Assembly (NCBI RefSeq): GCF_041381155.1
Contig: NC_091142.1
Coordinates: 40,783,604 to 40,847,603 of the forward strand
Direction: 5' to 3'
From: Argopecten irradians
Taxonomy: Eukaryota > Mollusca > Bivalvia > Pectinida > Pectinidae
Length of the DNA: 64,000 nucleotides
Made by a program: the position numbers and the translations under genes. Below, piece after piece: positions 15,163 through 55,830 of the stretch (the first letter of the stretch is position 1; the number at the start of each line of letters is the position of its first letter). The notes below the pieces were generated by a model. It was not told the DNA's origin, did no database searches, and was given only the letters and a program-made list of their open reading frames with translations.

Positions 15163-15170
15163 CCAATGAA

Positions 15171-15590
15171 CACAGGGACTTGTAACGTAGGTTGTGAGAA
15201 AGTCTGTTGTGTATACATGTGTACTATATACACAGGGACTTGTAACGTAGGTTGTGAGAAAGTCTGTTGTGTATACATGTGTACTATATACACAGGGACT
15301 TGTAACGTAGGTTGTGAGAAAGTCTGTTGTGTATACATGTGTACTATATACACAGGGACTTGTAACGTAGGTTGTGAGAAAGTCTGTTGTGTATACATGT
15401 GTACTATATACACAGGGACTTGTAACGTAGGTTGTGAGAAAGTCTGTTGTGTATACATGTGTACTATATACACAGGGACTTGTAACGTAGGTTGTGAGAA
15501 AGTCTGTTGTGTATACATGTGTACTATATACACAGGGACTTGTAACGTAGGTTGTGAGAAAGTCTGTTGTGTATACATGTGTACTAGGCC
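15171..15590 (+). repeat. Seven tandem 60-bp units, left foldback arm
   Basis: Exact head-to-tail repetition with 60-bp period. The seventh unit diverges in its last four bases, where it joins the inner arm. Because 60 is a multiple of 3, every frame stays open: the ORFs of 143-224 codons here are artefacts of the repeat. Confidence 0.95.
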
Positions 15591-17700: not shown

Positions 17701-17955
17701 ACGGTGTACCTCTTCCAAGCGAGCCGTTGGTTCCCTTGTCCTTTTATATAGTATATAAGCTTAGGCCTAGTACACATGTATACACAACAGACTTTCTCAC
17801 AACCTACGTTACAAGTCCCTGTGTATATAGTACACATGTATACACAACAGACTTTCTCACAACCTACGTTACAAGTCCCTGTATGTGTATATAGTACACA
17901 TGTATACACAACAGACTTTCTCACAACCTACGTTACAAGTCCCTGTGCCAATGAA

Positions 17956-27711: not shown

Positions 27712-27717
27712 TTTATT
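27712..27717 (-). terminator. Polyadenylation signal of the long Gly-Met gene
   Basis: AATAAA on the minus strand, about 80 bases beyond the stop at 27795, in a 3' UTR closely matching that of the short paralogue. Confidence 0.75.
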
Positions 27718-27794: not shown

Positions 27795-30451
27795 CTAGTA
27801 TTTGGCACCGCCTGACGGAGAAAGAGTATAAAGTCAATACCAGTCAAATGTACAATTTGCATTGTTATAGGTACTATTGAAATAGATAAACGATTAAAAT
27901 GTAAGATATTTTTAAAGGGAATGACAATGGTGATAAACCATTAACTATGTGATGGTACTGAGGTATAAACTGTTGTTAGGTTTAACTAAATTCTGAGGGA
28001 ACAGAAAGAGGAAAAGCTTTGAAAAATAAACAACATGGTATTATTTGTAAAACGTTCACTACTGTGAGTGATAACATCTTAAGGTGTAGTAATAACTGAA
28101 CCATGTATCCTTCATATATATCGTAATAGTGTTAACAATATAGTTTAACATCACAAGGCACACCACATGTTTGTAGGAATGAAAAGATTTCTTTATAAAA
28201 AATATTAATATTTAATTAATCTACAATAGAAGTGAAATAATCATTATGTAACTTACCCATGCCTCCCATTCCTCCGCCCATGCCTCCGCCCATTCCTCCT
28301 TTTCCTCCCATCATGCCGCCCATACCGCCCATTCCTGGCATACCGCCCATTCCCATACCACCCATTCCTTTTCCGCCCATCATACCTCCCATTCCTGGCA
28401 TACCGCCCATTCCCATACCACCCATTCCTTTACCGCCCATCATACCGCCCATGCCTCCCATTCCTGGCATACCGCCCATTCCCATGCCTCCCATGCCTTT
28501 TCCGCCCATCATACCGCCCATTCCCATGCCTTTTCCGCCCATTCCCATTCCTGGCATACCGCCCATTCCCATGCCTCCCATTCCTTTACCGCCCATCATA
28601 CCGCCCATGCCTCCCATTCCTGGCATACCGCCCATTCCCATGCCTCCCATGCCTTTTCCGCCCATCATACCGCCCATTCCCATGCCTTTTCCGCCCATTC
28701 CCATTCCTGGCATACCGCCCATTCCCATTCCTCCCATGCCTTTTCCGCCCATCATACCGCCCATACCGCCCATACCGCCCATTCCCATGCCTTTACCGCC
28801 CATTCCCATTCCAGGCATACCGCCCATTCCCATTCCCTTTCCGCCCATCATACCGCCCATACCGCCCATTCTTCCCATTCCTGGCATACCGCCCATTCCT
28901 CCCATTCCACCGCCATAAGCGCCTGAAAGTAAGAAGGTTGTTAGAAATATGTGAATTTTGCACTAAATTGACGTTTGTGATATAATCTTATGCAAAACGT
29001 CACAATTTTTTTTATTGTTGTGTCTTACGTTAAAACGAAATGTAAACGATTTGGATATAGGCACATTTAACACAAAAATGTAGTTACTGTATTATAACCA
29101 AATTAATAAAAAAACTCAATAATCAAGAAACCAGCAATTGATTTTCTTGTTGCTTTTCCAATCTGTTCACTTTACAATATACTTACCACGCTTGTAACCT
29201 ACAAAATGGAATAAAACATTATAATTGTGTTGCAAATCATACAAGCAATGTCGTTGGCATGGTTATCGCTGATCTATTTATAGTTGTTTTTACAAGTATC
29301 AATTGCAAAATCTTATGTCCTTTAAAGTTAATTATGTATTCTTTGTTTCTGGCTTTCTGATTGGCCTATTCATTTTTTTCATTCCACGATGTAAAAAAAA
29401 AAAAAATCCGAGAATGGCGCAGAAACCCGACGCTATCGTGACGTCACAATAGACACATTGACGTTGCGTATTGATTTGGAAAAAATAATCCCTTGAAAAA
29501 ATCAGTTGAATCGTACGTGTAAACGCATTTCATTTTATAAAGTATCATGGAAAATTAACTATAGGCATTAAAGTCACTATTTTTTTTAACTTCATCGGGT
29601 TATGAAATGAATTTTGTTTGCAAATTTTTATGAGAATCCGCTACACAATTTGCAAACAAATTTCTTCCATACCCCGATAGAATTAAAAAATAGGGTCTTC
29701 AATGCTTAAGTAAAGGAAAAACAGAAGAAAAAAAAGTGAAAGGTAAACTAATACATTTTTCTCAATCGCCTTGAATTCTTGGACTAAGCCTGAATTGCTT
29801 TGGAGCTCAATCTCCAATATAATATAATGAGAAGCATACTAACGTCCACCCATCATTCTGTTGTTCATTCCTCCTCCGTAACCGTTCATTCCTCCGTATC
29901 CATTCATTCCTCCGTATCCGTTCATTCCTCCGTAACCGTTCATTCCTCCGTATCCGTTCATTCCTCGGTAACCGTAATTTCCAATTCCATATCCTAGTTA
30001 CCATCAACCATACGTTTAAACGACTTTACAATAGTGTACTACGATATTTTAAAATATATTGAATGATCGTCGTATTTAAAAAACAAGTTACATCTGGTAG
30101 TTATACAAACTAAGCCTGGGTTGATTAGTCGAAAACTAGAGTAGTACATTGTGTTGAAATGTGTCTCGTCAAGTCATTATAAGAATTCATTTTGTTGTCT
30201 TAGGATAATTGACTAATTATCTACTTTGTAGTTGTCTCACTGAATTACTGAAACGTATTTCATTTCATTATGTATTTTTGTGACTGTAAACAGGTATTTT
30301 TCTAAGTAATGATATAGATGACAGAGGAGTTTCTGAAGATGTTACGATGAATGAGATGCACATTGGTGTAGTGCATTATATCTATGTACTTACCGGCAGC
30401 GTTGGCACCAACAACTATGACAGAAGCCATGCAAACGAAGAGGAAAGTCAT
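27795..30451 (-). CDS. Long Gly-Met-rich protein with furin-type site
   Basis: Coding segments are 30451-30394, 29993-29844, 29198-29187, 28922-28257 and 27811-27795, which give 300 aa, all joined in phase 1. Exon 2 encodes the signal peptide MTFLFVCMASVIVVGANAA. Exon 3 (150 nt) encodes a Tyr-rich module of GYGGMN repeats with eight tyrosines, ending NNRMMGG. The 12-nt microexon, between TTTTGTAG and GTAAGT, completes GRYKR|GAYGGG, which fits the furin consensus R-X-K/R-R. The large exon encodes MGGMPGMG, MGGKGMGMGG and MMGGKGMGG repeats; the last exon adds GAKY and stop. After cleavage the repeat chain would have Tyr only near each end. A secreted matrix or elastomer role is inferred from composition and from nearby abductin genes. 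Which isoforms exist is unknown; both the microexon and exon 3 are skippable without frame loss. Confidence 0.8.
29187..29198 (-). other. 12-nt microexon encoding part of the RYKR site
   Basis: Minus strand reads CCATTTTGTAG, then GTTACAAGCGTG, then GTAAGTAT. Joined in phase 1 to the flanking exons it gives GGR-YKR-GAYGGG. Skipping it keeps frame but gives GGR-AYGGG, which has no dibasic furin site. The strong consensus on both sides supports a real exon despite its size. Confidence 0.75.
29564..29705. mobile_element. Small hairpin MITE in intron 3 of the long Gly-Met gene
   Basis: GCATTAAAGTCACTATTTTT pairs with AAAAAATAGGGTCTTCAATGC (with mismatches). The inner ATTTTGTTTGCAAAT pairs with ATTTGCAAACAAAT. 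The 142-bp unit sits between the Tyr-rich exon and the microexon. Confidence 0.55.
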
Positions 30452-31749
30452 CTTGAATGTCTACAAAATGGAAAAAACCCAGTATAATACATAAATAGGA
30501 GTTTGGCTGTACAGTGTATATGTACATATCCATGTTAAGATTAAGATTTTATTCCTTTCTGTACTATAGATACATGTATATTTTATCAATATATTGAGGA
30601 GGATTGTTTTATACAGCATGACTACAATAAGTATTGTGTCTGTTTAACGAATGGTAGGTCTAGTATTATAGTGAATGTTGGTTGTTTTGGGATATTGAAC
30701 TCATTTATGAAATCAGTACACCGTAGGGTCAAACATTGATAATCTGTTGTGTTTTGTGAAAAGAACAATATTAGTAACATAATTAATGGAAAAAACCTAC
30801 CACTTCATTGAGTTTAAAATTTCATGGTGTTTTCAGCGACGAATCAAATTCATAATAATAATATACTTTTATATATAAAAATTGTAATCTGAAATTGAAA
30901 TTTTAATGTTAAATGTTTTTATTACATACTACGAATGTAATATTGGTTTAAAAGGAGCTTTGATATTCACATTGACGTTTTTTTTATATTAATTTTGAAT
31001 TACATTGAATTTTACATAAATAAAAAAATATATTCTTATGCCAATGCGTTTATGTTTTGTATCCTTGCAAATAATATAAATTAATGTAAAGTGTCAAGAC
31101 AAAACTATAGCGCGTATTCTCATTATTATCAGTATATAACCACGTCGTATAATGCCAATAATTTTGTTATAAGTCAGCAAATCAGTTTATTTTAGATTAA
31201 AATTAATCTACGCATTACACATGGAGAAAACATGCTTTTATGTTTGTGTTATAGTTGAAACAAGTCAATCTTCTATGCATAGTCCTAAAATCTTGAACTT
31301 CTCGGGATCATTTTATCATCAGCAATTCAGAAGTGGCCTCATTTTTACGTTGATATTAAATAAAAATCAATCATAACGTATATACACTATCTAATTATTG
31401 GTAATTATATGATGTTTTTTTTTATAAACAAAGGCAAATTGTTAATGACATCTACGATGACATTGATATTAGCAAGCAGATACGATTTTTTAAACTGCTA
31501 CACAAGAGCCGGAGCTGTCATTTAGTGGAATGGTTACGCACTAGTTTTCACTGCTATTTAAAAAGATAAGGGGGCATTTAATGACTAGATAAATGTGTCC
31601 AACTCAAATATTAAACCAAGGGCTCGAACTAGAAACCCTTACAAAACCTCAACATATAAACTTCTCAATGATGGGATCGCGTTGATAATATACAGCTTTG
31701 TAAAGTAAGAGCCGATTTAATTTTTTTATATTAAAATGAATCTTTAAAA

Positions 31750-37615: not shown

Positions 37616-39089
<1,474 letters not shown>

Positions 39090-45431: not shown

Positions 45432-48035
45432 TCACCATTCATTTTCACATTTCCGCTGAGCACCTCCATCTTTACTATTGGCAATATGTTTTTGAGAAAT
45501 GTAATGTTCTTTAATTAAATTGAGTAGAGCATGTGGACTTAAAATTTTATGCAAACATCTGGTTTTGTATATGTAATACATAAAAATAATCAAAATTTCA
45601 TTGATTGCTCTATTTATAGTATTATATCTATTTTGTGAAAACAAACCAAAAAGAACGCTTTGTTTATTGTATGGAAACGGGATATAGAGTACATCCAGAA
45701 ATGTCTCTGCGCTTTGCAAAAGTCTCTGAGTTTCTCTGCATTCCCAAAGAATATGGACAATGGTTTCTCTTTCAAGATTGCACAAGTTACATAGTGAATT
45801 ATTGGCTAATCCTACTTTACATACAAACGAGTTTGTTGTTAAAATATTTTGTACTATCCTGTACTGAAACCATTGTAGTTTTGTGTTTTAGTAACCTTGA
45901 AAGGATTATTATATATGTTGACCCAATTTAGCTCAATATCTTCAAATAGATCATCCCATTTTCCTCTACCAGTTGAAATGAGATTATCTTTAACCATGAT
46001 AATATAAAAATATTTTGTCCCATTTAAATTTTTCACAAAAAGTAAGATATTATTAGGGATAATTGGATAGACTATTTCATGGTTCATATTTACAACATTA
46101 AGTCTCGTTAAAAGTCTTTTGATAGATGTGATTACACCCTGAAATTGAAGGAAATTTATATTGATATTATACACATGCATGGATTCTTGATATGTATAGA
46201 AAGAACGTGTAGTGGGATCTTTTACTAAATCATTAATTATTGTTACACCTCTATCATACCAGGACTTATAAAAACTACATTTCCTCCAATAGTTATATCT
46301 TTATTATACCATAATGGCTTTGTCTGTGTACATGATAATATATCCATTTTTTTTCTCATCCCATCTACATCATTGAATTTTTTCCATGCTTTAAAAACGT
46401 CTTTCCAGAAATTATTCCTGCAATGTGACCTACATTCCTCAATATACTCACTACCGCATATTGATAACTTTTGAAAACCAGTATGTGATTTAAAAATAAT
46501 TTGCCACTTGCATGTATTTTTTAAAAGCTGGCCTACCCAAGTAAGTTTCAAGGAATCAATAAATAGTTTTACATTTACCATTCTTAGACCGCTTTCATTA
46601 AAATCTTGCACCAAGACATCCCTCTTTATTTTATCTACCTTACTGTTTCATAGAAAGTTAAACAGAATAGTGTTAAGTTCTTGAAGAAATGTTTCATTAG
46701 GATTTGGTTATGAAATAAATAAGTGAATAAATTGAGACAAAAAAGAGACTTAATTAGGGCTATTCTGCCAATGGGTGTGAGAATTCTTTTGCCCATTGTC
46801 TTTATTAGTGCTTTAAGTTTAATTAACTTCTTATCGAAATTTAATTTTAATCTCATGCATGTTCACACTAAATTCAATTCCAAGCAGTGTAAATTTAGTT
46901 TTACTCCATTGTAAATTTAACTCTGGTAAAAAGGTATCACCACTATAACTTTTGCCCCCTATCCAAATGACCTGTGTTTTATCAACATTAAGTTTTAACC
47001 CAGAGTTTTTTGCAAAGGAGTTCAACTCACAAATAGATTCCTTTAACGATACTTCTGAACCATTTAGTATAAGTGTGGTATCATCAGCATATTGGGAAAT
47101 AAGAATGGGAAAATTACCTACATCTATACCCTTAATCTTCTTGTTATTTCTTATCCTGATACCTAGAATTTAAACACACAGCACAAAGATGTATGGCGCG
47201 ATTGGGTCCGCTTGACGGCAGCCTCTTCTGATGTGGAGAAAAGAAGAAGATTTCCCCCCCCCCCCCTCTGGTTCACCGCAGCAATAATGTTAGTGTTAAA
47301 CAATTTAACCCATTTTTGAATATCTGGACCAAAATTAAATTGAAATATTTCAAAACTTTATTTACAAATTTCCAAGACACAGAATCAAAGGCCTTTTCAA
47401 AATCTAACATGAGTAACATGCCTGGTATATTTTTTTTCTTCGGCATATTGCATGATATCGTAGACAAGTCTTGTATTTTCTCCAACATAGCCACCAGTGA
47501 GAAATCTTGTTTGATCCTCACAAATTAATCTATCTAGAACTTTTTTAATCCTGCTTGCTATACATCCTGAAGCTCTTTTACATACTATATTTAAAAGAGT
47601 AATAGGACGCCAGTTTTTCTAAAATTGCCTGGGTTTATCTCCCTTAGAAATACACGTGATTACACCTTCTCTTTGAGTTACAGACAACATTCCCTTTATA
47701 TATCCAAAAGTTATAGATCTAACTATGAAAACCCCTCACTGCTTCAAGAAATAACTATGAAAACCCCTCACTGCTTCAAGAAATATTTTTAAAAAATCCG
47801 TAGTGAAACCATCTGTGCCCGGACTTTAATTGTTTTTCATATTTTTCAGAGTTTTAGCTGCCTCATCTAAAGAAATCATCCCTTCTAAACTTCTAGCCTC
47901 GTTATTATCTAATTTTGCAACATCATACCTACCTAAATAATCTGTTAAGTTAGCATCCTCTGTATCACAGTTTTCATAATATAGCTTTTCATAATAAGAA
48001 TGAACTTCATTGAGAATATCATCCTGATCAATGAA
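45432..48035 (-). mobile_element. 5'-truncated LINE, reverse transcriptase region
   Basis: Minus-strand frames show, in order: ILNEVHSYYEKLYYEN, MISLDEAAKTLKNMKNN and PGTDGF; MLDFEKAFDSVSWKFV; ADPIAPYIFVLC; the catalytic QYADDTTLIL (YADD at 47080-47091); GLKLNVDKTQVIWIG; ILTPIGRIALIKSL; GLRMVNVKLFIDSLKLTWVG; and the C-terminal ETIVHILWECRETQ. This is a non-LTR retrotransposon ORF2 lacking the endonuclease part, with several frameshifts and stops. A C run at about 47255-47266 replaces sequence just before the PIAPY block. A ~30-bp direct duplication lies at 47727-47785. The clade is probably L1/Tx1-like, judged by motif wording only. Confidence 0.8.
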
Positions 48036-55029: not shown

Positions 55030-55830
55030 TAATTGAGGGGGGGGGGGGGGGAGGGGGGGGGGCAAGGTCCTCAATATTTGGACTCCCCCCACCTCCTCGC
55101 CCCGATTACGATTTAGAATTTTACGATGCATTTTTGATGAATGTGGGAGCGCCCGAAGGCGCGAGATTTTGGTGTTTGAGGGGATCCGGGGGTCTCCCCC
55201 GGGTAAAAATATTACGATTTAGAATGGCTGTGATGAGTTTTACGATGTATATTAATGATTTTAAAGCGTTCTTAACATGATACTTTTTTCATTTAAAGTT
55301 ACCTGCATTTAGAAATGATTAATTGTGAATGCCGTCATATCATTATGCAAACTCTGCTCGATTTGAACATACCGGCTTCACACCATCGGCACATTGTTGT
55401 TTAACACAAAATAATAATGAATTAATTGTCTTGCTAAGTCATATAAACAAATGAACTTTTAAGATACATTTTTTAAAATGGTACGTAGAATCCCTTGATT
55501 GACATTTTAGGTCTTGTTCATGTGTATTGAATTTTTACTGTTAAACGTTTCAACATTATATGAATATACAATGTATGTACATGAACGTTTAAGAAAATGT
55601 GCCACGCAGTGGAAAATTGTCTAAAATAAAGTACGAAAATGTGCAGGAGGACCCCTTTTTCTTTCAAATGTGCAATTTTACAACATTTCAGTCGGCAAAA
55701 ATGAGGGGGCGGGGTTACAAAAAGACATTATTGCCCCCCGTCCTGGGAAACGGGGAGGCAATCCCCCCCGACCCCCTCCAACCCCGACACCACCTCCCAC
55801 CCCCGCTTCCTACGCCCCTGTATCTACATT
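55030..55830. mobile_element. GC-rich hAT-like repeat fragments
   Basis: 55030-55210 has long G runs and GGGGATCCGGGGGTCTCCCC-type motifs. 55690-55818 matches the repeat at 20-132 and ends CTTCCTACGCCCCTG. Between them the sequence is AT-rich. The hAT-like label rests on the CAGGGGCGTAG end only. Confidence 0.4.

Follow-up and report, generated by a model that had tools for sequence, protein, structure and literature searches.

A candidate 12-nucleotide microexon that may write a convertase-type site into an abductin-like gene of Argopecten irradians

Does a 12-nt microexon write a protease site into a gene for a structural protein, and would that site be cut? The question is raised by gene A, on the minus strand of the window, by which we mean the whole 64,000-nucleotide stretch of Argopecten irradians DNA analyzed here. 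An initial annotation had placed a 12-nt microexon in this gene. We found the 12 nt, GTTACAAGCGTG, at that position and of that length, at 29198 to 29187 on the minus strand. They lie inside a 921-nt intron (29843 to 28923) and are flanked by ...tattccattttgtag on one side and by gtaagtat on the other. The candidate microexon is phase 1-1, and its inclusion inserts the residues YKRG and completes RYKR|GA. With the microexon, the frame reads ...MMGGRYKRGAYGGGM... (GGRYKR|GAYGGG); without it, the frame reads ...MMGGRAYGGGM....

The predicted exons of gene A are all on the minus strand, and all of its internal junctions are phase 1. Exon 1 (30460 to 30394) has 9 nt of 5' UTR, an ATG at 30451, and a stretch, MTFLFVCMASVIVVGANAA, that looks by eye like a signal peptide, and it ends in phase 1. 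The block around it (30477 to 30351) is 95% identical to gene B, a paralogue, over 127 aligned nucleotides. Exon 2 (29993 to 29844; 150 nt, phase 1-1) encodes a Tyr-rich GYGGMN module. Exon 3 (28922 to 28257; 666 nt) encodes a Gly/Met repeat chain that starts (G)AYGGGMGGM. The coding part of the terminal exon (27811 to 27795) ends in ...GGAKY and a stop, and an AATAAA is found at 27717. The predicted precursor has 11 tyrosines, eight of them in exon 2; the microexon, the start of exon 3, and the C terminus hold one each. Gene A has no match in Pfam at E values up to 0.1.

The reading frame tolerates the presence or absence of the 12 nt, as had been claimed. With every exon included, gene A encodes a 300-residue precursor containing GGRYKRGAYGGG, and without the 12 nt it encodes a 296-residue precursor containing GGRAYGGG. 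All four exon combinations that we tried were open, including those that omitted exon 2 or both exon 2 and the microexon. Retention of the intron after exon 2 leads at once to a TAG (from 29841), giving a product of 70 residues, MTFLF...MMGGR*. The predicted junctions are GGAC-GTTACAAGCGTG-GCGCTTAT for inclusion and GGACGCGCTTAT for skipping, and the cDNA sequence diagnostic for inclusion is GGACGTTACAAGCGTGGCGCT.

The neighbors of gene A suggest what kind of protein it encodes. Abductin, the elastomer of the scallop hinge ligament, is a classic natural rubber. A review describes it from one scallop cDNA and credits the Argopecten irradians abductin cDNA to Cao et al. 1997 (PMC13052691). It is described as cross-linked via tyrosine (PMC3291537, PMC13052691), and scallop abductin has conserved C6, C10, Y4, and Y20 and the repeat consensus GGFGGMGGGX (PMC13052691). 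Two other minus-strand genes of the window carry this N-terminal pattern. Gene D (52658 to 51556; 136 aa) begins MNAYICLAACLIAAVSAAGY, with Y4, C6, C10, Y20, and a last tyrosine, Y136, and gene C (38888 to 37616; 132 aa from the ATG at 38888) begins MNAYICLAACLIAVVSAAGY. Both genes also carry the repeat, as FGGMGGGNAG, GGFGGMGGGK, and similar units. Gene D has no match in Pfam at E values up to 0.01.

With genes C and D both agreeing with published scallop abductin, the window looks like a tandem abductin cluster of four genes on the same strand, two of them abductin and two abductin-like. The four genes, A to D, share a predicted abductin-type layout, with a phase-1 intron after the signal peptide and a tiny last exon with a C-terminal Tyr. 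Gene A resembles abductin in its phase-1 signal-peptide exon, its Gly/Met repeat exon, and its tiny last exon ending in Tyr and stop. However, its repeats are of the GMGGMPGMGMGGKG type and not FGGMGGGNAG, and it carries in addition a Tyr-rich exon, the microexon, and arginines. Its N terminus, MTFLFVCMASVIVVGANAAGY, has a single Cys, at position 7, and lacks the Y4/C6/C10 pattern, and FGGMGGG does not occur in the protein. Since the layout is common to all four genes but the sequence signature is not, we regard genes A and B as abductin-like relatives rather than strict abductins. Shematrin was considered as the family and was dropped, because two neighbors match described abductin instead.

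Some other features of the window were seen along the way. Just upstream of the gene C ATG there is a pure run of 160 G (39048 to 38889), preceded immediately by ATGAAC and followed by a second ATGAACGCC where the gene starts. Read from the upstream ATG, gene C gives poly-Gly and then runs out of the abductin frame. The run looks like either an expansion in which the start was duplicated or an artifact of the assembly. A repeat of about 60 nt (ACACAGGGACTTGTAACGTAGGTTGTGAGAAAGTCTG...) is found in two arrays (15170 to 15586 and 17768 to 17946) that are oppositely oriented and separated by about 2.2 kb. The region from 45432 to 47169 holds reverse transcriptase fragments in separate minus-strand frames, RVT_1 at 46831 to 47169 and zf-RVT at 45432 to 45887, as of a broken retroelement.

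We then asked how strong the splice sites of the microexon are. On approximate matrices, not trained on this scallop, the acceptor scored 8.1 bits and the donor, GTAAGT (29186 to 29181), scored 9.9 bits. The presumed constitutive sites of gene A scored 8.4 bits (exon-1 acceptor) and 8.9 bits (exon-3 donor) on the same matrix, so the sites of the microexon are comparable to them. Exon 2 is different: its acceptor scored 2.7 bits, and its donor, GAC|GTTAGT, scored 3.06 bits and is the weakest donor of gene A. Of all the junctions, the one that links exon 2 to the microexon is therefore the least secure. The initial annotation had called the sites perfect-looking, which is fair to the 8.1 and 9.9 bits of the microexon itself but not to the exon-2 donor to which it would be joined.

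Strong pairs of sites can arise by chance, and we estimated how often. Across the 64 kb, the microexon is the sole sense-strand pair 3 to 30 nt apart that reaches both scores, against about 0.46 expected. Two such pairs lie on the opposite strand, against about 0.58 expected, so a window of this size does hold strong pairs by chance. Within the microexon's own 921-nt intron the outcome was more restrictive. Among 5,000 dinucleotide shuffles of that intron, an equally strong pair appeared in 7, an in-frame open pair in 2, and a pair giving R-X-[KR]-R in none. The other 11 intervals of genes A to D (two of them overlapping) had no pair at the microexon's scores, and relaxed scores yielded in them one extra pair only, of 8 nt and out of frame. 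The microexon is notable through its position in the intron and not through the mere existence of a strong pair. These comparisons confirm the 12 nt as a real sequence feature, better than chance, and we consider it probable that they are a used exon. Regulated skipping is considerably less probable than use; preservation of the frame is the one hint of it.

The acceptor of the microexon has a further peculiarity. Its tract, ATTATAATGTTTTATTCCATTTTGTAG (29225 to 29199), is a near-copy of the exon-1 acceptor (30488 to 30461). The two are identical in 25 of 29 alignment columns, with 3 gap columns, and the likeness ends exactly at the splice point. We ranked the 627 acceptor-like sites of the window by their likeness to the 50 nt upstream of the microexon. 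The microexon itself scored 100, gene A exon 1 scored 35, and gene B exon 1 scored 26. A plus-strand site at 30570 followed at 24, and then three sites at 23, one of them the acceptor of exon 1 in abductin gene D (52670). The only occurrences of TTCCATTTTGTAG in the window are at 30473 and 29211, and CATTTTGTAG is confined to the acceptors of the microexon, gene A exon 1, and gene B exon 1. The likeness supports a shared origin of the acceptor blocks of the microexon and exon 1. We read the microexon acceptor as a probably borrowed or co-evolved functional acceptor, which favors real use of the microexon.

To derive the microexon from all of exon 1 by internal deletion would be over-reading. 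The likeness on the donor side was 15 for gene A, a value reached by 31 of 111 GTAAG controls, and 19 for gene B, reached by 5 of 111. A sliding comparison over the whole window also gave 35 at 55450 to 55402, equal to exon 1, yet this site is not acceptor-anchored; a score of 35 was reached by none of 2,000 first-order Markov resamples of the query. Because the donor sides lack a distinct signal and 55450 to 55402 scores equally, we make no claim of whole-exon copying. A nested inverted repeat (29562 to 29708; 24 nt at 83% and 18 nt at 94%) lies in the intron after exon 2, ahead of the microexon. It may be a foldback element, one able to draw these two exons closer together in the RNA.

Furin-type proprotein convertases recognize the consensus R-X-[KR]-R. 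RYKR is the only R-X-[KR]-R and the only basic pair of gene A, and it falls at the exon 2/3 boundary, where the Tyr-rich module gives way to the Gly/Met chain and where the site had been proposed. With its start that looks by eye like a signal peptide, gene A thus combines the features of a convertase substrate, a predicted secreted protein and the motif. Arginine is absent from the predicted proteins of genes B, C, and D, and gene A carries arginines. The first R of the motif is encoded by C|GT, with the C in exon 2 and the GT in the microexon; on skipping the codon becomes C|GC, still Arg. Because this P4 Arg codon spans the junction, the microexon adds four residues, YKRG, and not the whole motif. 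The claim that the microexon produces R-X-K/R-R therefore stands for the product, GGRYKR|GAYGGG, but not for the origin of its first Arg. For the same reason the skipped form is GGRAYGGG and not GGRGAYGGG, as it had been read. Taken by itself, the motif is less rare than the splice-site pair. An R-X-[KR]-R arises in 0.18% (at 30% GC) to 0.48% (at 45% GC) of random open 12-mers in this context, and the window has 386 real open AG-N12-GT stretches of which 6, the microexon included, give it; moreover, attention was drawn to the motif post hoc.

Paralogue B (5007 to 2941, minus strand) has a shortened exon 2 and no microexon. Its exons 1, 3, and 4 join in frame into a predicted protein of 183 aa, MTFLF...NAAGAYGGGM...GAKY. 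It lacks the remainder of exon 2 as well as the microexon, apparently through loss by deletion. Within 4188 to 4060 it retains the beginning of the Tyr exon as a truncated, apparently donor-less copy, and nearby about 58 nt of gene B (4121 to 4064) have no clear counterpart in gene A. The chains of the two genes diverge after MPGM, with GRMGG in gene A and GMGGK in gene B. A gappy alignment offered a degenerate microexon in gene B. However, 4138 to 4122 of gene B matches 29146 to 29130 of gene A at 16 of 17 positions, which puts the end of the deletion past the microexon, and we did not accept this candidate, which we consider the less likely reading. A MAFFT alignment of the two genes placed exon 2 wrongly and is not the basis for the deletion reading. 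Because the region is missing, gene B is uninformative about the age or conservation of the microexon. Its predicted protein suggests that a chain lacking the Tyr-rich module can exist.

Taking these results together, we suggest the following scenario. Gene A is probably a hinge-ligament gene of the abductin family. The microexon would be spliced between exons 2 and 3, inserting YKRG and making the convertase-type site RYKR|GAYGGG. During secretion, the chain would be cut after RYKR, whose last residue is R73. The products would be a Tyr-rich N-terminal piece of about 54 residues with 9 tyrosines, a length for which the end of the signal peptide was set by eye, and a 227-residue Gly/Met chain starting at GAYGGG. 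This start resembles, as matched by eye, that of the paralogue B chain after its predicted signal peptide, (A)GAYGGG. The microexon would thereby place the cross-linking module either covalently on the elastomer or beside it as a separate partner, in all or some transcripts.

The sequence, the phases, the open frames, the strength of the splice sites, and the structure of the paralogue are what the analysis shows directly. In this scenario the splicing, the signal-peptide cleavage, the convertase cleavage, and the mechanical consequence are steps that we infer from the DNA. If the exon is used, we give convertase cleavage about an even chance. The combined proposal, a real microexon that writes a convertase-type site between cross-linker and elastomer and leads to cleavage there, is tentative, and we put it somewhat under an even chance. 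A bolder version, in which a 12-nt cassette exon with an acceptor borrowed from the signal-peptide exon tunes the cross-link density or stiffness of the rubber in scallop ligament cells by making or withholding the convertase site, and so keeps the tyrosine module on the chain or releases it, seems to us improbable. An abductin relative, in a tandem cluster, whose cross-linking module is split off at a microexon-encoded protease site would be an example of how the elasticity of a structural protein can be tuned in a mollusc.

The closest alternative accepts the microexon as real, and probably constitutive, but leaves RYKR uncut. The inserted residues would then form a short, basic, Tyr-bearing linker joining the two parts of a single chain, to which it contributes charge and an extra cross-linkable tyrosine, Y71. 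Other structural proteins of molluscs likewise have basic residues next to their tyrosines. All of the splice evidence, from the site scores and shuffles to the likeness of the acceptors, serves this explanation equally. In addition, the microexon itself encodes a tyrosine, Y58, Y71, and Y76 are close together, and the tyrosines of abductin D (Y4, Y20, Y136) lie near both ends of that protein. However, an uncut linker leaves a full R-X-K-R unexplained in a family whose members B, C, and D have no arginine, an argument that is suggestive only. We regard the uncut linker as quite possible, if doubtful. It is also conceivable that the 12 nt are not used at all, as a chance acceptor and donor pair or as a decayed copy of the exon-1 acceptor. 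Exon 2 would then be joined to exon 3 (GGRAYGGG) or be skipped, as predicted in gene B. The two equally strong pairs on the opposite strand (about 0.58 expected) are in keeping with this, as is the lack of an accepted counterpart in gene B, and an acceptor that resembles that of exon 1 might owe its strength to inheritance rather than to selection. Yet only 7 of 5,000 and 2 of 5,000 shuffles matched the observed pair, and the 12 nt come with a strong donor as well as the right length, phase, and openness. We therefore consider disuse unlikely.

A different explanation makes exon 2 the true switch. With its weak sites, exon 2 could be followed by a retained intron, and the product would be a 70-residue, Tyr-only precursor ending at the TAG (GGR*). 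The retained frame does read MTFLF...MMGGR*, the exon-2 donor scores 3.1 bits, and the intron contains an AATAAA at 29016. That AATAAA, however, is about 820 nt beyond the stop and lies in AT-rich surroundings. The exon-2 acceptors of the abductin genes C and D are also weak on the same matrix (-0.06 and 3.49 bits), and their exon-2 donors (4.55 and 5.31 bits) are weakish to middling, yet above the 3.06 bits of gene A. Because exon 2 of genes C and D encodes nearly the whole protein and is weak too, weakness of exon-2 sites is poor evidence of skipping or retention, and we do not take it to indicate alternative splicing. A switch at exon 2 is very unlikely. The preferred reading remains a used microexon with a putative convertase site.

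How does this reading compare with known systems? Among the matches listed in the open-access literature, judged by titles and the starts of abstracts, none described a microexon that writes a convertase site, which is weak evidence, and the molluscan microexon literature, covered in the same way, contained no convertase-site case. Methionine-rich, insoluble shell and hinge-ligament proteins have been described from Pinctada fucata (PMC7591529). They resemble gene A by description only, in methionine richness, insolubility, and ligament source, and the main text of that paper does not mention furin. Gpr126 has both alternative splicing and furin cleavage, but its furin site is in a SEA domain and is reported to be cleaved in both splice forms (PMC6954182).

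Two systems come closer. The Caenorhabditis elegans cuticle collagens SQT-3 and DPY-17 are reported to undergo N-terminal convertase processing (BLI-4; PMC10538796). They are like the predicted gene A product in being structural extracellular matrix proteins with an N-terminal dibasic, furin-like site; they differ in being unrelated proteins, and the abstract of that paper does not mention a site placed by splicing. In APOER2, the alternative exon 6B encodes a furin site and is reported to give additional products sensitive to a furin inhibitor (PMC11293713). As proposed for gene A, inclusion of the exon adds a furin site in frame. However, APOER2 is a receptor with reported inclusion and furin-dependent products, whereas here the protein is structural, the exon is 12 nt, and the site is putative. 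Exon 6B is reportedly larger than 12 nt, and, unlike in APOER2, the P4 residue of gene A is built across the splice junction.
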